Shown here in pieces: positions 8,407 through 21,177 of a DNA stretch of 64,000 nt. A program made the position numbers and the translations under genes. Below the pieces are notes generated by a model. It saw only the letters and a program-made list of their open reading frames with translations, was not told where the DNA came from and did not search any database. Origin of the DNA: Pseudothermotoga thermarum DSM 5069 (lineage in GTDB: Bacteria > Thermotogota > Thermotogae > Thermotogales > DSM-5069). The stretch lies in contig NC_015707.1 of assembly GCF_000217815.1 (NCBI RefSeq), positions 1,538,014-1,602,013 of the forward strand. The letters are read 5' to 3'. Within the stretch, counting starts at the first letter, position 1. The number at the start of each line of letters is the position of its first letter.

Positions 8407-9645
8407 CTATCTCAGCAAACCCTTTTTCACGCCATATTCAACAACCGCTTGTTTTAACCTTTTTACCCCTTCGATTATCTTTTCCTCTGGTGGAAGACAG
8501 TAAGAAAGTCTCATTGAAGAACTTGGCTTTTCATCCACGGTGAACAATTGACCTGGTACGTAAAAAACACCTTTTTCCTTGGCAAAGTGAAGCATTTCCA
8601 ATGTATCAAAACCCTCTGAAAGAGTAAGCCAGACGAACAAACCTCCTTCGGGTTTTACCCACCTGGTGTTTGGTATATCAGAAAATTCGTTCGCAAGCGC
8701 TTCAACCATGATATCACGCTTCCTTTTGTAAATCTGTATAGCATTTTCAAGTTGACTGATCAAATCATATCTTTGAAGGTACCTGGCAGCTATCCTTTGG
8801 TTCAAACTAGGGCTGCAAAGGTCCACAATTTGTTTGGCATCGGCAAATTTTTCTATAAGTTCTTTCGGGCCAACTATAGTTCCTATTCTTAAACCTGGTG
8901 TCAAAACTTTGCTGAAGGTGTTCAACAACAAAACTCTTTCACAACCTGCAAGCGAAAACAAACTTGGAAGATGCTTTCCTTCAAATCTAAGAAGACCGTA
9001 TGGATCATCTTCCAATATTAAAAGATCGTATTTTGCCGCAATCTCCAAAAGACGTTTTCTCTTTTCAAGTGACATCGTTACACCTGCTGGATTGTGAAAA
9101 TTTGGAACAGTGTAGATGAACTTCACCTTCTTAATCTTTCCTCCCATGTCTAGGTTTTGAAGAACGTTTTCAAGAACGTCAAGGTTCATCCCATCATCTT
9201 CCAAAGGTATACCGATGATAGTTGGCAAGGCCGTCTTAAACGAAGCAAACGCCACAAAGTAGACGGGATTTTCAACTATGCATATGCTTTCTTTGTCCAA
9301 CAAAACGCGTGTCACAAGATCGATTGCCTGTTGCGAACCATTGGTAAAAAGTATGTTTTCGTGTTTTAGGTTGTCCACACCATAAACTTTTTTGAAGAAT
9401 TTAATCATTTGATCGGCAAGCAGAGAATCGCCCTCGGTGCTGTTGTACTGCAAAGTGTAGTAATATTCGTTTTCAATCACTTCTTTGGCTATTTCAGCAA
9501 GCTCTTTTCTCGGAAACGTTTCAGGATCCGGTACCCCACCACCAAAAGATATCGCACCAGGAATTGCTGCAAACTTCAACAGTTCTTTCACGATGGAAAG
9601 ATTCAAATTCTTTCCAAAGTCCGAATAAAGTTCTTTGTAGTTCAC
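8407..9645 (-). CDS. PLP-dependent aminotransferase (fold type I, LysN/aromatic type)
   Basis: Class I/II aminotransferase of 412 residues, resembling 2-aminoadipate (LysN-like) and broad-specificity aromatic/branched-chain enzymes. The PLP lysine is Lys246 in N-T-F-S-K-V-L-T-P-G-L-R. The conserved N-F-H-N-P-A-G-V is near 182-189. The early F-G-G-G-V-P-D-P-E-T-F-P motif is typical of this subgroup. The GTG at 9645 is chosen because AGGAGG lies seven bases upstream; the in-frame ATG is directly on the ribosome site. It stands alone between the zinc operon and the arginine operon. Substrate is not determinable here. Confidence 0.85.
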   Translation of the reverse strand: MNYKELYSDFGKNLNLSIVKELLKFAAIPGAISFGGGVPDPETFPRKELAEIAKEVIENEYYYTLQYNSTEGDSLLADQMIKFFKKVYGVDNLKHENILFTNGSQQAIDLVTRVLLDKESICIVENPVYFVAFASFKTALPTIIGIPLEDDGMNLDVLENVLQNLDMGGKIKKVKFIYTVPNFHNPAGVTMSLEKRKRLLEIAAKYDLLILEDDPYGLLRFEGKHLPSLFSLAGCERVLLLNTFSKVLTPGLRIGTIVGPKELIEKFADAKQIVDLCSPSLNQRIAARYLQRYDLISQLENAIQIYKRKRDIMVEALANEFSDIPNTRWVKPEGGLFVWLTLSEGFDTLEMLHFAKEKGVFYVPGQLFTVDEKPSSSMRLSYCLPPEEKIIEGVKRLKQAVVEYGVKKGLLR

Positions 9646-9686
9646 TTGCATCCCTCCTGAGACAGTTATCAATTTGTGTTTTAAGC

Positions 9687-9695
9687 ATTGTACCA
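9687..9695 (-). promoter_or_regulatory. Extended -10 promoter of the aminotransferase gene
   Basis: The minus strand reads TGGTACAAT, a TGn-extended -10, about 42 bases before the GTG start. It is divergent from the arg promoter. Confidence 0.5.
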
Positions 9696-9766
9696 CAAAC
9701 TGATTTTGTGTTGTCTTTACAAACTTGTATCCAATACTTTGTTACATCATGTTTTTTCACTTGATC

Positions 9767-9780
9767 GCAAATAAATTTGC
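9767..9780. promoter_or_regulatory. Small palindrome upstream of the arg promoter
   Basis: GCAAAT-AA-ATTTGC, a perfect 6-2-6 inverted repeat about 35 bases upstream of the arg -10. It could be a repressor half-site or nothing. It does not match the ArgR consensus (TGAAT/ATTCA). Confidence 0.25.
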
Positions 9781-9813
9781 AAGGAATTTTAACCACAAAC
9801 TAAGTCTTTATCT

Positions 9814-9822
9814 TGTTATAAT
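9814..9822 (+). promoter_or_regulatory. Extended -10 promoter for the arg leader
   Basis: TGTTATAAT is a consensus extended -10, with transcription expected to begin near 9829. No convincing -35 is present, which is usual for extended -10 promoters. Confidence 0.65.
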
Positions 9823-9848
9823 TTTGCCAAACAAGGTGGGAGTATATC

Positions 9849-9938
9849 GTGAAGAGGATACTTGAAGTTACAAAATCAATGTTTCCAACAAAGAACATAA
9901 GGCGAACGAAGGGCCGGTGGGTGCAAGAAGGCACCTAA
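9849..9938 (+). CDS. Candidate arginine leader peptide (29 codons)
   Basis: A short GTG-initiated frame follows AAGGTGGG by eight bases, begins about 20 bases after the predicted transcription start, and ends at TAA 9936-9938. Its 29 residues include four arginines, at positions 3, 18, 19 and 23. Two of these use CGA and CGG codons, which should be rare if this genome favours AGA/AGG. The AGG-CGA pair (9900-9905) sits at the 5' arm of a terminator hairpin, and the stop codon sits in its apical part. This is the arrangement expected of a translational attenuator for arginine genes. The peptide is inferred; a chance frame in a structured leader is possible. Confidence 0.45.
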
Positions 9939-9956
9939 GCCCTTCGTTGCCTTTTT
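9901..9956 (+). terminator. Terminator 1 / candidate attenuator in the arg leader
   Basis: The arm 9901-9914 pairs with 9939-9951: AACGAAGGGC with GCCCTTCGTT perfectly, extended by GGC/GCC with one bulged base. TTTTT follows. An inner helix GGTGC/GCACC (9920-9924 with 9931-9935) stacks inside. It contains the end of the leader frame. Confidence 0.8.
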
Positions 9957-9963
9957 GCATCCA

Positions 9964-9996
9964 GCGGCCATATCGAAAGATATGGCCGCTTTTTTT
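9964..9996 (+). terminator. Terminator 2 upstream of argG
   Basis: GCGGCCATATC-GAAA-GATATGGCCGC, a perfect 11-bp stem with a GAAA tetraloop, followed by seven Ts. It is a very strong intrinsic terminator only about 30 bases before argG. It is also a 26-bp palindrome in DNA. Confidence 0.9.
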
Positions 9997-10001
9997 ATAC
10001 T
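9973..10001 (+). promoter_or_regulatory. Possible second promoter embedded in terminator 2
   Basis: TCGAAA (9973-9978), a 17-base spacer and TATACT (9996-10001) could form a promoter starting argG mRNA near 10008. This would leave the upstream RNA as a separate short transcript. The -35 matches only four of six bases. Confidence 0.35.
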
Positions 10002-10026
10002 ATGGCAACCTTTAGGAGGTGAACTT

Positions 10027-11286
10027 ATGGGTGAAAAAGTAGTTCTTGCTTACAGTGGAGGATTGGATACTTCGGTCATCCTGAAATGGTTGGTCGAAAA
10101 AGGATTTGAAGTCATCGCCTACGTTGCCGATGTTGGGCAGCAGGACGATTTTGATTACATCAGGCAAAAGGCGCTTGCAACAGGAGCCTCAAAAGTTTAT
10201 GTTGAAGATTTAAAAGAAGAGTTTGTAAGAGATTACATCTTTGTTGCTTTGATGGGTAATGCGATGTACGAAGGCAGATATCTTCTTGGAACAGCCCTTG
10301 CCAGACCTTTGATAGCCAAGAAGCAAGTTGAAATAGCTCACAAAGAAGGTGCCAAGTACGTTGCACACGGTGCGACGGGTAAGGGAAACGATCAAGTTAG
10401 ATTCGAGTTGACCTACGCCGCCTTGGATCCAACGCTCAAGGTGATCTCGCCTTGGAAAGATCCAGAATTTTTGAGTAAGTTCAAAGGAAGAACTGATTTG
10501 CTGAAATATGCCAAGGAGAAAGGTATACCAGTCAAAGCAACTATTGAAAAACCATACAGTGAAGATGAGAACTTAATGCATATTTCCCATGAAGCTGGAA
10601 AACTTGAAGATCCAGCTTATGTGCCAGATGAGTCTATCTTTACCAGGACTATTTCACCAAAGGATGCCCCCGATGAGGAAACGCTGCTTCAAATTCACTT
10701 TAAAGATGGTATACCGATAAAAGTAGTTAACCTAAAAGATGGCACCGAGAAAACAACGCCTTTGGAGCTTTTCATGTACTTGAACGAAATAGGTGCAAAA
10801 AACGGCGTAGGAAGAGTTGACATGGTTGAAAATAGGTTCATCGGAATCAAATCAAGAGGTGTGTATGAGACTCCTGGAGCAACGATACTTTGGATTGCCC
10901 ACAGAGACCTTGAAGGCATAGCGATGGACAAAGAAGTCATGCACCTTAGAGATATGTTGGCACCGAAATTCGCCGAATTGATTTACAACGGCTTTTGGTT
11001 TTCTCCTGAGATGGATTTTCTTTTGGCTGCTTTCAAAAAAGCTCAAGAGAAAATCGATGGATGGGTGATCGTGAAGGTATACAAAGGAAATGTCTGGCCA
11101 GTCGCAAGGTATTCTCCAACCTCGCTGTATGATCAAAATCTTTCGAGCATGGATGTGGAAGGTGGGTTTGATTCAACTGACTCAAAAGGATTCATAAACA
11201 TTCACGCGATTCGTTTGAAAGCACACAACGTAGTTCTTGGATCAAAAGATCCATTTGAATGGAGAAAGGGGCTTGTGGATGTCTGA
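10027..11286 (+). CDS. argG: Argininosuccinate synthase
   Basis: Joins citrulline and aspartate with ATP to make argininosuccinate, the seventh step of arginine synthesis, in the cytoplasm. The 419-residue protein begins with the PP-loop A-Y-S-G-G-L-D-T-S at 8-16 and is about the normal length. The ATG at 10027 follows AGGAGGTGA at ideal spacing; in-frame upstream codons fall in the terminator and are not used. It heads the argGHCJBD-carAB run and overlaps argH by eight bases. Expression likely depends on the leader and terminators upstream. Confidence 0.96.
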
Positions 11287-12478
11287 GAAACTTTGGGATA
11301 AAGGTTATCAACTTGACAGTTTGATTGAAGATTTCACCGTAGGGGAAGATTACTTGCTAGATATGAAATTGATCGAATACGATATATTGGCAAGCATAGC
11401 ACACGCTCGAATGCTTCAAAAGAAAAATCTCCTAACGGTTGAAGAATTTTCAGCAATCGAAAATGCTTTGAAAAAGTTGTTGAACTTGGTCGAAGCTGGA
11501 AAATTTGAAATAAAAAAAGAGCAAGAAGATTGCCATACAGCAATAGAAAATTTCCTTGTTCAAGAAATCGGGGAAATTGGAAAGAAGATCCATACTGCAA
11601 GATCTAGAAATGATCAAGTTTTAACTGCCATAAGGCTTTATCAAAAAGATGAGCTAATGCAAATTTATAGTCTAATAAAGGATCTTCAAAAAAGTTTGAA
11701 AAAATTTGCCAAGAAATATCGTTCGGTGCAATTTGCTGGGTACACACATACAAGAAAAGCTATGCCAACGAATTTTGAAATTTATGCTTATGCTTTTGTA
11801 GATGCTCTACAAGACGATTTAAAATTGCTCAAAGCAATTTACGAAATAATCGATCAATGCCCCTTGGGAACTGGCGCTGGTTATGGTGTACCGATCGAGG
11901 TCGACAGGGAATTTACCGCGAAAGAACTTGGATTTAAAAAGGTTCAAGAAAATCCAATATACGCCCAAAACAGCCGAGCAAAGTTTGATGCACTTATTGT
12001 TCAAACTTTGCTGCAAATTGGATACGATTTGAATAAATTGGCTACGGATTTGATTTTCTTCTCTTTAGAAGAAATAGGTTACGTTGTGCTACCAAAGCAG
12101 TTCTGCACTGGTAGTTCTATAATGCCGCACAAATTCAACCCAGATCCCTTGGAATTGCTAAGAGCCAATTACCACAGATTGATTGGCAATTTGATGCAGA
12201 TACTTTCTCTCTCATCCAACTTGATATCTGGTTATCATAGGGATTTTCAACTGTTGAAGAAACCATTGATTGACAGTTTTGAAACGGTCAAACAGATGAT
12301 CGTTGTGATGAAAGTAATCGTCGATGGTTTGAAAGTTGATGAAGAAAAATGCAAGAAAAGTCTGACAGAAGAGGTATTCTCCACCCACAAAGTTTACGAG
12401 CTGGTCAAACAAGGAATTCCTTTTAGAGAAGCTTACAAAATGGTTGCTATCCAATATTCAAAGGGAGGTCAAGTATGA
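11279..12478 (+). CDS. argH: Argininosuccinate lyase
   Basis: Splits argininosuccinate into arginine and fumarate. 399 residues of the aspartase/fumarase superfamily, with H-T-A-R-S-R-N-D-Q at 105-113 and the signature loop [12 protein letters not shown] at 278-289, which holds the catalytic serine. It is somewhat shorter than the roughly 460 residues usual in other bacteria, missing part of the C-terminus. The ATG at 11279 lies inside the end of argG with an AAAGGGGC site. It overlaps argC by ATGA. Confidence 0.95.
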
Positions 12479-13497
12479 TAAAGGTCAGCATCGTTGGAGT
12501 AACAGGTTATACAGGTTTGGAACTTTTGAGGATACTCAAAAGACACCCATACGTAAATCTCGAGGTGATATCCTCAAAAAGCCATGCCGGTAAGAGTTTA
12601 AGTTACCATTTTCCGTTCAGCTTCGAAGAAAAAATGATTGAAGATCTTGAAAGATCCATCGAATTAGCTCAAGAGAGTGATGTGGTGTTTTTAGCTGTTC
12701 CAACTGGTGTATCTTACGAAATAGCCAACAAGCTTTCAAAACCAAAAATCATAGATCTTGGGGCGGATTTCAGATTCAACGATCCAAAGGTTTATGAACA
12801 GTGGTACGGCAAGAAATTGGAAAACTACGAAAAATTCGACAGAGTTTACGGTTTAACGGAAATTTATCGCGAGCAAATTAGAAATGCAAGAATCGTGGCA
12901 AACCCAGGTTGTTATCCCACATCGGTTATCTTGGCTTTGGCGCCGCTGCTGAAGGAGAAACTTTTGCTGGACCAGACGATAACAGTCGATTCGAAATCGG
13001 GAGTTTCTGGAGCTGGAAGAAAAGACAGCGCTGAATATTCTTTCTGCGAACTCAACGAAGGCATGAAACCCTACAGCGTGGTCAACCACCGACATGTACC
13101 TGAAATGGAACAAGAACTTTCAAAACTTTTTGGTGAAAAAGTGCAACTGGTGTTTACTCCTCAACTTGCACCGATGACGCGCGGTATCCTTTCCACGATT
13201 TATGTTAAGACGAAAGCTTCGCTGTTAGATGTTTATCATTTGTATAAAAAATTCTACGAGAAGGAAAAATTTGTGCACGTGTTGGAACCAAATGTTTTTC
13301 CTTCAACCAAATGGACTGTTGGTTCAAACCACGTTTTCATATCTATGACAAAGGATGAAAGAACCGATACCTTAGTTTTGATCAGTGTTCTAGACAACTT
13401 AGTGAAAGGAGCTTCTGGACAAGCCGTTCAAAACATGAACGTCATGTTCTCCCTTGAAGAAGATTTAGGACTTGTTGAAAATCCAATTTTCCCGTGA
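12475..13497 (+). CDS. argC: N-acetyl-gamma-glutamyl-phosphate reductase
   Basis: NADPH-dependent reduction of N-acetylglutamyl phosphate to the semialdehyde. 340 residues. The N-terminal Rossmann motif [10 protein letters not shown] is at 8-17 and the catalytic Cys146 is in N-P-G-C-Y-P-T-S. The catalytic histidine lies in the H-R-H-V-P-E region. Overlaps argH by four bases and is followed after 16 bases by argJ, with AGGAGG between. Confidence 0.95.
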
Positions 13498-13513
13498 GAA
13501 AGGAGGAGGTTGC

Positions 13514-14703
13514 ATGGAGCAAATTCCTGAAGGATTTTTATTCTCCTCCGTTCATTGTGGAATAAGAAGAAAAAGAAAGGACCTTGGGATAATATATTCC
13601 CTTGCACCTTGCAGTGCAGCGGGTACTTTCACAACCAACACGATCAAAGCCGCACCGGTTGTGTACACTTCAAACGTGCTTGAAAGAAATAACACAAACA
13701 TTAGAGCAGTGATTGTCAACAGTGGTGTTGCAAATTCTTGCACCGGCGAACTTGGTTTGAAAAATGCCATTGCAACGGCAGAGTTTCTGGCAAAAAAGCT
13801 GATGCTTGACGAAGATAGCGTTTTAGTTGCTTCCACTGGTTTGATCGGTGTTCAACTTCCTATGGACAAGATAATCAACGGTATAGAAATGGCCGTTGAA
13901 AATTTTACAACGGATCCACTTGGCTTTGCGGAGGCAATAACGACAACCGATACCACTTTGAAACTTTCCTCGGTTTGTTTGAATTTGAACGGTAAAAAGG
14001 TGAAAATTTTGGGAATTGCAAAGGGTAGCGGGATGATTCATCCAAACATGGCTACAATGCTTGCCTTTATCTTGACTGACGCAAAGATCTCTCCACAGTT
14101 GTTGAAAAAACTTTTCAAGGAATCTGTTGATCAAACTTACAACATGATCGACGTTGACGGTGACACAAGCACAAACGATATGGCTTTGATTTTGGCAAAC
14201 GGTTTTAGCGATGTGGAAATAAACGAAGGGACAAAGGAATGTGAGGAATTTTTCAAAGCCCTAAACCAGATAAACATGGAATTGGCAAGGAAAATAGTTG
14301 AGGATGGTGAAGGGGCAAGCAAAGTGATAGAAGTTGAAGTACTTGGGGCACCAGATATTGAAAAAGCTAGGAAAATTGCACGAACAATAGCTTCATCCAA
14401 TCTAGTTAAAACGGCAATTCATTTGGAGGATTTAAACTGGGGAAGAATACTAGCTGCCGCTGGGTATTCCGGAGTCATATTTGATTATTCAAAAGTTGAT
14501 CTTTACCTTTTGGCGGAGGGAAAGATGGTAAAACTAGTTGAAAATGGTTGTGGATGCAGCTTTGACGAGGAAACAGCAAGATCAATCCTTGCTCAGAAAG
14601 AAGTTAAGATCGTTTTGGATCTTAAGCAAGGTCAGGCAAGTGCTAAAGCGCTTGGTTGCGATTTAACAGAAAAATTCATCGAAATATCTGGGAGGTACAA
14701 AAG

Positions 14704-14707
<4 letters not shown>
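13514..14707 (+). CDS. argJ: Glutamate N-acetyltransferase / ornithine acetyltransferase
   Basis: Transfers acetyl from N-acetylornithine back to glutamate, closing the cyclic arginine pathway. 397 residues. The self-cleavage and nucleophile threonine is Thr181 in [10 protein letters not shown], and [10 protein letters not shown] follows near 208-217. The ATG at 13514 follows AGGAGGAGG. No argA is in the operon, so a bifunctional ArgJ that also uses acetyl-CoA is likely (inference from other Thermotogae). Overlaps argB by ATGA. Confidence 0.94.
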
Positions 14708-16733
<2,026 letters not shown>

Positions 16734-16753
16734 TAAGTTGGAGGGAAATTGAA

Positions 16754-17908
16754 ATGGGTAAAAAAGCCTTGCTCGCGTTTGAAGATGGAAGCTATTTTTT
16801 CGGAACCAATTTTGGTGCCAGTGGAGAAACCTTTGGAGAAGCGGTTTTCAACACCAGCTTGGTTGGATATCAGGAGGTTTTGACGGACCCTTCTTACGCT
16901 GGACAAATAGTGATCATGACTTATCCAGAAATAGGCATTTATGGAATTAACAACGAAGATTTTGAGTCCGATGGAATTAAAGTTAACGGTTTTGTAGTTT
17001 TTCGTGCGATAAAAGAAGCTTTTAACTTCAGGGCGACAACAACTTTAGATGAATTTTTAAAGCGTTACAACGTGATTGGCATCGAAGGAGTGGATACAAG
17101 AGCGATAACCAAAAAGATAAGATCCAAAGGGACGATGAAAGCCGCGATTTCAACACTAGATCTTGAACCAAGTTCTCTTGTAAAAAGGGTGAGAGAATCA
17201 GCAGATATAGGAAAACTTGATCTTGTAAAAAAAGTTACCTGTCAGCAAGAAGCAGTTGAAGACTTTGATGGGGCAAAGATAGTTGTAATAGATTGTGGTG
17301 TTAAGTATGGGATTATTAGGGAGCTTGAGCAACTTGGAGCAAAGTTGATTCGCTTAAGATACGATTTTGAAGTTGATCAGATTAAAAAGATAAAACCAGA
17401 TGGAGTTTTGATTTCAAATGGTCCTGGAGATCCAAAGATTCTTAAGAAAACAGTCGAAAATATTCGCAATTTGCTGAAATTCGAGGTACCTTTGGTTGGT
17501 ATTTGTCTCGGCCATCAACTTATAGCTCTCGCCGTAGGCGGACAAACTTACAAAATGAAATTTGGTCATAGAGGGATAAATCATCCTGTAAAGGATTTGA
17601 GAACTCAAAAGGTTTTGATAACTACTCAAAATCATGGTTATGCTGTGGATCCAAAATCTTTTGGAATAGATCTTCCCGAGGAAGTGTGGAAAATAGATTT
17701 TTCGAAATCTTTCGTTGGAAAAAGCTTGGAAGGTTTTGGTCAGGTACAAATAACGCACATTTCTTTAAATGATTGCACTGTGGAAGGCCTCAGATTGATT
17801 GACAAGCCGGTCTTTTGTGTTCAATTTCATCCCGAGGCATCCCCAGGTCCACACGACAGTAAAGACTTTTTCAAGGACTTTGCCAAGTTAATGAGGGGGG
17901 ATTGTTGA
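16754..17908 (+). CDS. carA: Carbamoyl-phosphate synthase, glutaminase subunit
   Basis: Hydrolyses glutamine and passes ammonia to CarB. 384 residues: an N-terminal CPSase small-chain domain (about 1-150) and a C-terminal class I glutamine amidotransferase domain. The nucleophile is Cys251 in G-I-C-L-G-H-Q, with His359 and Glu361 in Q-F-H-P-E-A. The ATG at 16754 follows GGAGGG; an upstream in-frame TTG is ignored. The stop shares its last base with the carB start (TGATG). Confidence 0.95.
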
Positions 17909-20900
17909 TGCCAAGAAGAAATGATATAAAAAGAATTCTTGTGATAGGTTCAGGACCCATAACTATAGGCCAAGCCGCTGAATTTGATTATTCTGGTTCA
18001 CAAGCTTTGAAAGCCCTGAAAAAAGCAGGATATTATACTATTGTTGTAAACTCAAATTCCGCCACAATTATGACTGATCCACAACTTTCAGATGCAGTGT
18101 ACATAGAACCGCTTACCGTGGAATTTTTGGAAAAGATCATAGCGAAAGAAAGACCAGATGCAATTTTGCCAACTCTTGGTGGTCAAACGGGGTTAAATCT
18201 TGCAGCAGAATTGGCGGAAAAAGGTATTCTTGAAAAATATGGTGTACAGTTGATAGGTGTAAACCTTGAATCTATAAAGAAAGCCGAGGATAGAGAGCTT
18301 TTCAAACAGGCCATGCTTGAAGCAGGTTTAGAGGTTCTAAGAAGCAGATTGGTTTCAAGCGTTGAAGAAGCTTTAGCGGTGGTTGAAGAATACGGATATC
18401 CCGTTGTGATAAGACCAAGTTTTACGTTGGGTGGAACCGGTGGAGGAATCGCATACAACAGGCAAGATCTTGAAAGAATAGTGGCAACGGGAATTGCGGC
18501 CAGCCCTGTGGGAACAGTTTTGATAGAAGAATCCGTGATCGGATGGAAAGAGTACGAACTTGAGGTTATGAAAGATTCCAAAGGGAATTTCATAGTCGTT
18601 TGTTCGATAGAGAACTTCGATCCAATGGGTATTCACACCGGTGATTCCATCACCGTAGCACCATCGCAAACCCTTACAGACGTTGAATATCAAAAAATGC
18701 GCAACTGGGCAAAAGCTGCAATGAAAGCAATAGGAATGACTGCTGGTGGAGCGAATATTCAGTTTGCTGTAAACCCTGAAAATGGTAGGATGGTTGTCAT
18801 CGAAATGAACCCAAGAGTTTCAAGATCCTCAGCTTTGGCTTCCAAGGCAACTGGTTATCCCATAGCCAAAATAGCTGCTCTACTTGCTGTTGGTTACACG
18901 CTTGATGAAATACCTAATGACATAACTGGTAAAACGACTGCAGCCTTTGAGCCAACAATTGATTATGTTGTGGTGAAAATACCAAGATTTCAAATGGAAA
19001 AATTCCCTGGAGCAGATGAAAGACTTGGAACTCAAATGAAATCGATTGGTGAAGTTATGGCAATTGGAAGAACTTTTAAGGAAGCTATAGGTAAAGCTTT
19101 AAGAGCGTTAGAACTGGATATAGCACCTGAGCTGGATCTTACGAAAATTGATGAAAATCTTGCAAACCCAACTTGGAAGAGGTTGTCATACATTTTTGCG
19201 GCTTTTCGAAAGGGATATAGTGTTGAAGATGTTCACAGATTAACCAAAATTGACAAATGGTTTTTGACTCAACTTAAGGAAACAATGGATTTTGAGAATA
19301 AATTGAAAAAAGAAGGTTTGAATGAATATACACTGAGAATAGCGAAAGAACAAGGCTTTTCTGACAGAGAAATTGCGCAGATGTTTGGAAAAACTGAAAA
19401 GGAAATAAGAAAGCTTAGAGAAAAGTATGGTATCTTCCCTGTTTTCAAAATGGTTGATACATGTGCTGCAGAGTTTGAAGCCAAAACTCCTTATTTTTAC
19501 TCTACTTACAATGGTGTGGAAAATGAATCTAAACCTTCTAACAGGAAGAAGATCCTAATCCTTGGTTCAGGACCAAACAGAATAGGACAGGGAATAGAAT
19601 TCGATTACGCAAACGTTCACACAACCTGGGCATTTCAAGAAGAGGGTTACGAAGTTATAATGGTCAATTCGAACCCTGAGACCGTTTCAACTGATTATGA
19701 TACATCCGACAAACTTTATTTTGAACCACTTACAACTGAAGACGTTTTAGAAATAATCCGTTTAGAACAACCGATGGGAGTTGTCGTCAGCTTTGGCGGA
19801 CAAACTCCGTTGAAAATTGCCAAAAAACTTGCAGAAGAGGGAATAAAAATACTGGGAACAAACTTTGAATCTATCGACCTGGCTGAGGATCGAGAAAAAT
19901 TTGCAGTACTTCTGAAAAATCTAGGAATAAAATGTCCACCTTTTAGAACTGCGACAAGTGTAGAAGATGCTTTGAAAGCAGCAAAAGAACTTGGCTTTCC
20001 TGTGCTGGTTAGACCCAGTTTTGTTCTAGGTGGAAGAGCGATGGTTATCATTGACAGCGAGGAAAAACTCGAAGAATATGTACGTAAGGCAATCGTGATT
20101 TCAGATGGTCATCCAATTTTAATAGACAAATTTCTTGAAAATGCCATAGAATTCGATGTTGATGTGGTTAGTGATGGGAAAAGTGTTTGGATAGCGGGAA
20201 TTATGGAACAAATACAAGAAGCAGGTGTTCATTCAGGTGATTCCGCTTGCGTTTTACCTCCAATCAGCATTTCTGACGAAACTATAGAGGAGATAGAAAA
20301 CGTAGTTTTCAAGCTTGTTAAAGCGTTGAGGATCATTGGACCTGCGAATGTACAACTTGCTGTTAAAGACGGGCAAATTTATGTTCTAGAAGCCAATCCA
20401 AGAGCTTCAAGAACTTTTCCATTTGTAAGCAAAGCTATAGGTATACCAGTAGCTGAAATCGCAGCTAAGGTAATGATAGGAAAATCTTTGAAAGATCTTC
20501 TAAAGGAGTTTTGGCCATATCCTGCCAGAAGGGATTTTGATGAAAATAGCGAGCTTTTACCAACTCCTATACCAAAATATTACGCAGTCAAAGAAGTTAT
20601 CGTACCTTTCAGTAAATTCTTAGGGACTGATGTTACCTTTGGTCCAGAAATGAAATCAACAGGTGAAGTGATGGGATTTGGGCAAGATTTCGCCGAAGCG
20701 TTCATAAAAGCTGAAATAGCCGCTGGAAACTTTGAAAAAAGAAGCAAAACGATTTTGGTTAGTATAGCAGATAAAGATAAAAGAAAATTTATTCCCCTTC
20801 TTGTTTATTTGAAAGATATTGGGTTTGAAATCGTTGCAACTACTGGGACAGCCAAGGCTTTAAAGAAAGTTGGAGTTAATTGTAAAGAAATTAAAAAGGA

Positions 20901-21177
20901 CGAAGAAAAAGATATTGTTAGGTTGTTCAGAGAAAGAAAAATTGACATAGTTGTTGTGACAAATTCGCCTCAAAATGTTGAACAACTGAACGGCAGTAAA
21001 AGTTTTGGAAGGTTGCTCAGAACTTTGGCGGTTCAATACAGAATTCCTTGCATAACTTCCTATGAATTATTCAGCACACTGGTTATAACTTTGAAGAAAG
21101 CATTAAACCCTGACAGCCTTTCCGTCATAAGGTTGAACGATCTTCATGCCCTTCAAAAAGTTGTGATTAATGAATAG
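17908..21177 (+). CDS. carB: Carbamoyl-phosphate synthase, large subunit
   Basis: Makes carbamoyl phosphate from bicarbonate, ammonia and two ATP for arginine and pyrimidines. 1089 residues with two homologous ATP-grasp halves, each opened by a G-S-G-P motif: [10 protein letters not shown] near 12-21, and again G-S-G-P-N-R-I-G-Q near 553-561. A C-terminal MGS-like regulatory domain begins near 945. The ATG at 17908 is preceded by GAGGGGGG. It is the last gene of the operon, and I find no hairpin terminator after it. Confidence 0.95.

Follow-up and report, generated by a model that had tools for sequence, protein, structure and literature searches.

The attenuators of the enterobacterial trp, his, leu, ilv, and thr operons carry cognate codons in region 1 of a leader open reading frame (ORF), can form mutually exclusive 1:2, 2:3, and 3:4 helices, and place an intrinsic terminator before a biosynthetic operon. 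The stop codon is located so that a terminating ribosome would cover the antiterminator sequence. Bacterial arginine operons are usually described under the ArgR repressor or T-boxes. In T-box leaders of arginine genes, tRNA-Arg charging sets termination or antitermination before the arg genes. In fungi, the arginine attenuator peptide is encoded in an upstream ORF of an arginine gene and stalls ribosomes at high arginine, but it acts on translation and mRNA decay and not on transcription termination. RNA control for arginine has been listed as the T-box (PMC1262725). Two consecutive Arg codons in the Salmonella speF/orf34 leader set the fold of the mRNA (PMC6386406); that system differs in working through Rho, RNase G, and exposure of a ribosome site, and its target is ornithine decarboxylase, not arginine synthesis. 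According to a genome-wide study in 2010, leader-peptide systems had until then been demonstrated in the Proteobacteria and Actinobacteria alone; that study added the Firmicutes (PMC2965389).

The leader of argG in Pseudothermotoga thermarum shares with the enterobacterial attenuators all of the features given above. It differs from them in its amino acid (arginine), in its host phylum (Thermotogota), and in having the antiterminator strand about 10 nt past the control codon, inside the leader ORF. In common with T-box leaders it would respond to the charging of tRNA-Arg, but it has no T-box and no direct tRNA binding, and with the fungal peptide it shares an upstream ORF on an arginine gene. 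We consider it very likely that this leader senses charged tRNA-Arg and controls transcription as a ribosome-mediated (leader-peptide) attenuator, a reading for which all of the support is computational. Its features place it among the leader-peptide attenuators of the trp/his type, and its arginine specificity and its phylum are, as far as could be checked, unreported. Our literature search returned no arginine-specific bacterial transcription attenuator and none in Pseudothermotoga; the broad survey of predicted attenuators by Lopatovskaya et al. (2010; Mol Biol 44:128) lay outside its coverage, and an earlier prediction in the phylum is possible.

The leader lies in a window of 64,000 nt (the whole stretch of DNA analyzed), part of a 2,039,943-base single-contig genome. 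Positions are those of the window and all features are on the forward strand. The promoter element is an extended -10, TGTTATAAT (9814-9822), with a weak -35, and transcription would be expected to start near 9829. A Shine-Dalgarno-like site, AAGGTGGGAG (9833-9842), precedes a putative leader peptide ORF of 29 codons that runs from GTG to TAA (9849-9938). Its four Arg codons are AGG at 9855-9857, the pair AGG-CGA at 9900-9905, and CGG at 9915-9917, which is modest for 29 codons by count alone. An earlier note on this DNA had pointed out the extended -10, the ribosome site, and the GTG frame with AGG-CGA and CGG, and all are confirmed in the sequence. The AGG-CGA pair (Arg-Arg) provides the putative control codons. 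argG (10027-11256) has its own ribosome site, AGGAGGTG (10014-10021), and is the first gene of the operon that would be controlled, followed by the closely spaced argH, argC, argJ, argB, argD, carA, and carB (11276-21177). The regulatory codons (AGR-CGN) are cognate to the product of the operon that they precede.

The folding z-score of the leader is -7.25, and 0/200 shuffles were equally stable. An intrinsic terminator at 9963-9997, made of a 12-bp stem (9963-9974/9979-9990) and a T7 run, is the only hairpin called by a consensus terminator scan. It corresponds to the second of two tandem terminators that the earlier note had placed before argG. The first of these, hairpin 1 (9899-9953), does have a 5' arm that spans the AGG-CGA codons as claimed, but it is not called as a terminator, and its U-run is partly paired inside its own stem and variable among relatives. 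The locus has one terminator, and from folding and alignment pairs hairpin 1 is better read as filling the role of the 1:2 helix in the classical attenuation scheme. The leader stop codon (9936-9938) sits at the junction of the apical and lower stems of this hairpin and not, as previously described, in its loop. The core of the terminator stem, GGCCATATC/GATATGGCC (9966-9987), is identical in the nine argG leaders described below, although the antiterminator takes up no more than its base. The switch does not need the upper part of the stem, ATATC/GATAT, to be invariant.

An antiterminator was said to be missing, but one is found by folding. With the RNA 5' of 9912 masked, which mimics a ribosome on AGG-CGA, the best fold pairs 9912-9933 (region 2) with 9948-9969 (region 3) at -39.7 kcal/mol, when computed only as far as the 5' arm of the terminator. 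None of 300 shuffles was as good. This helix captures 9963-9969, the 7 nt at the base of the terminator 5' arm, and the two helices are mutually exclusive. The U-run formerly read as the tail of a first terminator is part of the antiterminator 3' strand. Hairpin 1 competes with the antiterminator because both use the same 5' strand. In eight of the nine leaders, the minimum free energy (MFE) structure under masking of the control codons is the antiterminator. The ninth leader, also masked, gave -28.4 kcal/mol (0/300 shuffles as good), and modeling at 70 °C clamps its terminator base with a probability near 1. At 70 °C, where extrapolated parameters were used, the masked leader clamps the first bases of the terminator GGCC with a probability near 1. 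When a ribosome is modeled on the stop codon instead, the RNA left free adopts the terminator fold in 9/9 leaders.

Once the complete terminator is transcribed, it belongs to the MFE structure at equilibrium even with the control codons masked. Therefore, the switch must act through folding kinetics. The outcome when the leader is not translated is uncertain, since most species are predicted to favor the antiterminator over hairpin 1 in a ribosome-free leader whose terminator is incomplete. The Kosmotoga-like leader has a weak hairpin 1, and in several relatives the lower stem of this hairpin, tested alone, was no better than shuffles. The antiterminator therefore carries more of the case than hairpin 1 does.

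We compared argG upstream regions across the Thermotogota and found the leader in nine genomes. These are the window's own, six more in its family, one MAG (L033, the same locus as G046), and the Kosmotoga-like G063. The leader is directly upstream of argG in all nine. The terminator core occurs exactly once in each of them and is absent from the 94 other Thermotogota genomes that were searched, and the 10-nt terminator tail has 7-9 T throughout. All nine have promoter-like sequence 142-166 nt upstream of the terminator, with 11/12 matches in eight of them. The leader frame is open in every genome, with 28-34 codons. The second control codon is always Arg, an invariant residue written with three synonymous codons (CGA, CGG, or CGT), and the first is Arg in eight of the nine (L026 has Lys). 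Among the three leaders in one genus, changes outside hairpin 1 number 2/2/7 at codon positions 1/2/3, as would be expected for a translated frame. From the open frame and this third-position bias, the leader ORF is predicted to be translated. The C-terminal part of the peptide is alike across genomes (R-R-x-x-x-R-W-V-x-x-G-T/A-stop), and the 5' part is not conserved between genera.

A one-base bulge in the antiterminator moves between species, and column-by-column pair counts were for this reason replaced by a strand-swap duplex test. Cognate strands gave a mean of -24.2 kcal/mol, compared with -19.8 kcal/mol for swaps between species. Only 1/20,000 permutations was as good, a figure that serves as a guide and not as an exact probability because the sequences are related by descent. 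Each cognate pair also beats at least 498/500 shuffles. The Arg CGN codon and the core antiterminator strand are separated by 10 nt in 9/9, and the stop codon lies 23-26 nt past that strand. With a general-knowledge value for the ribosome footprint, this spacing fits a region 2 that is free at a control-codon stall and covered when the ribosome is at the stop. Attenuation via a cognate leader peptide, as the earlier note suggested, is strongly supported by this alignment of relatives, in which the frame, the Arg codons, and the co-varying alternative helices are kept across nine genomes; the note had itself called for such a comparison.

From the computed ORF, codons, promoter, alternative helices, co-variation, spacing, and phylogenetic distribution, we infer ribosome stalling, a response to arginine, and actual termination at the leader. 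Transcription would begin near 9829 and a ribosome would load onto the GTG ORF. With charged tRNA-Arg in short supply, this ribosome would stall at AGG-CGA (9900-9905) and cover the 5' arm of hairpin 1. With hairpin 1 blocked, the strand from 9912 would be free to pair with 9948-9969, taking the base of the terminator 5' arm, and RNA polymerase would continue into argG-H-C-J-B-D-carAB. Under arginine sufficiency, it would be the ribosome that reaches the stop (9936-9938) and covers one or both antiterminator strands. The terminator (9963-9997) would then form, transcription would end near 9997, and the operon would be off. The prediction is that the ribosome frees the antiterminator strand, instead of masking a first terminator as had been proposed.

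ArgR governs arginine biosynthesis genes in Thermotoga, in the same phylum, and had been named as the described control. It differs from the leader in being a DNA-binding repressor, and it is missing from all nine leader genomes, including the window's own, in searches with PF02863. With no detectable ArgR in the genome, that control does not apply here. PF01316 likewise gave nothing above cut-off in the window's family. ArgR (PF02863) was detected in 8/103 Thermotogota genomes; these eight carry argG but lack the leader, and several other argG-bearing Thermotogota genomes have neither. ArgR is confined to one clade, so its mutual exclusion with the leader is a consistent pattern and does not represent many independent events. 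No T-box match was obtained in the window from 9000 to 11000 at E-values up to 1, using a search that recognized a real T-box in L028. The only Rfam matches at the window's leader were spurious miRNA-like ones on hairpin 1, far below the gathering score. The T-box leader in L028 (278-513), on a contig binned as Synergistetes, lies upstream of argG and constitutes a third control route for this gene.

A covariance model built from the nine argG leaders only (R1) was run across the phylum. It recovered these nine together with other leaders whose codons match their operons (Arg, Lys, His, Trp), the operon gene names being read from translated sequence and not from a family search. Leaders with RRR and a GCCGGTGG...CGGCTACATC switch precede argJ in nine genomes of another Thermotogota family (L138, L139, L142, L165, L166; also L140, L141, L143, L144), and five were refolded. 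These are predicted to be arginine attenuators on a different first gene. Lys-codon leaders read NKKYVK before dapF-dapA (L145, L146, L159) and NKKQVK before lysC (L161), and are candidate lysine attenuators at sites where lysine riboswitches might be expected. His runs, HHH(H), are found before hisZ-hisG (L151, L154, L155). Trp runs, WW or WWW, are found before trp genes including trpE and trpB (L150, L164), and L153 is a further Trp-run leader. The refolded siblings form an antiterminator-like helix with the control codons masked and a terminator with a ribosome on the stop. No Rfam amino-acid leader family reached the gathering threshold at the other leader loci. R1 gave no match in 92 further loci, among them argG loci outside the Thermotogota and Thermotoga argG. 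The codons of the siblings match operons that were not used in building R1, and this provides strong outside support for the mechanism.

A leader peptide that acts within the ribosome would account for some of the same observations. The nascent peptide would sense arginine, or its lack, and the arrested ribosome would set the same RNA fold. The likeness of the C-terminal peptide among genomes points this way, but much of it follows from RNA strands that are obliged to pair. The Lys, His, and Trp siblings use runs of matching codons in unrelated peptides, which points to tRNA charging, and we regard arrest by the peptide as unlikely. The strong terminator, together with a promoter and an ORF belonging to the leader itself, might also suit an independent short RNA or small-protein gene with a constitutive terminator and no role in argG control. 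The first reading of the sequence had raised an independent small RNA as a possible model. It is not supported: the leader stands directly 5' of argG in nine genomes, its antiterminator strands co-vary, its codons match the operon, and the 5' part of the peptide is unconserved between genera. We judge this explanation very improbable.

The remaining alternatives give the leader peptide no function. argG could be transcribed from TCGAAA-17-TATACT within the terminator, a 9/12 promoter-like match at 9973-10001 that would make the leader irrelevant. By chance alone, however, 1.7 such sites are expected in the scanned region, and this promoter, which had also been put forward before, is not conserved in relatives, whereas the upstream one is. 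This is even harder to credit than the short RNA. Least credible of all is an attenuator controlled by a ligand or protein (a riboswitch or RNA-binding protein), with an ORF that plays no part. The invariance of the ATATC/GATAT upper stem, which the switch does not need, could be taken in its favor, but no Rfam riboswitch or T-box was found, and the frame and Arg codons are kept at a fixed spacing. Attenuation by a leader peptide that reports charged tRNA-Arg is the reading that we retain.

The Thermotogota probably share a set of such attenuators (for Arg, Lys, His, Trp, and probably amino-acid or peptide transport) of one compact design, with the attenuator replacing ArgR in the Arg-leader lineages. 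If so, arginine and possibly lysine would join the amino acids sensed by bacterial leader-peptide attenuation, in a phylum that lies outside those where such attenuators are usually described. Since the mechanism appears in the Thermotogota, never with ArgR, and has Lys, His, and Trp siblings, the age of ribosome-mediated attenuation and the swapping of a repressor for an RNA switch between genomes would become directly testable. A further question is how the switch would operate near 70 °C with transcription and translation coupled.

The window's own genome has a likely second attenuator at L170:801-923 (approximately G000:C1:475,523-475,645), where a WWWLW leader ending in VVCVNWWWLWGMPSLKGSPKATLIL and a stop precedes trpE. 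Its GGGATGCCCTCC is complementary to the terminator 5' arm. No evident His attenuator is found before hisZ-hisG in this genome. Some weak R1 matches with E-values above 4e-4 (L152, L156, L162, L167, L168) were rejected, as they resemble plain terminators that lack a matching leader. Five leaders (L149, L157, L158, L160, L163) carry Arg or Arg/Lys/His codons (NRRIK, NRKHDK, NRKHVK, RRHHR, NRKHHVK) before apparent peptide or amino-acid transporter genes, and their codons may hint at the substrates. In L147 and L148, a leader ending in VVYIVLILPAGGLAGV and a stop, with the same switch, precedes an amidohydrolase-like gene. The his leader of G005 (L154, on the reverse strand just upstream of the R1 match) is present twice, flanking an N run, possibly through an assembly gap or a tandem duplication.
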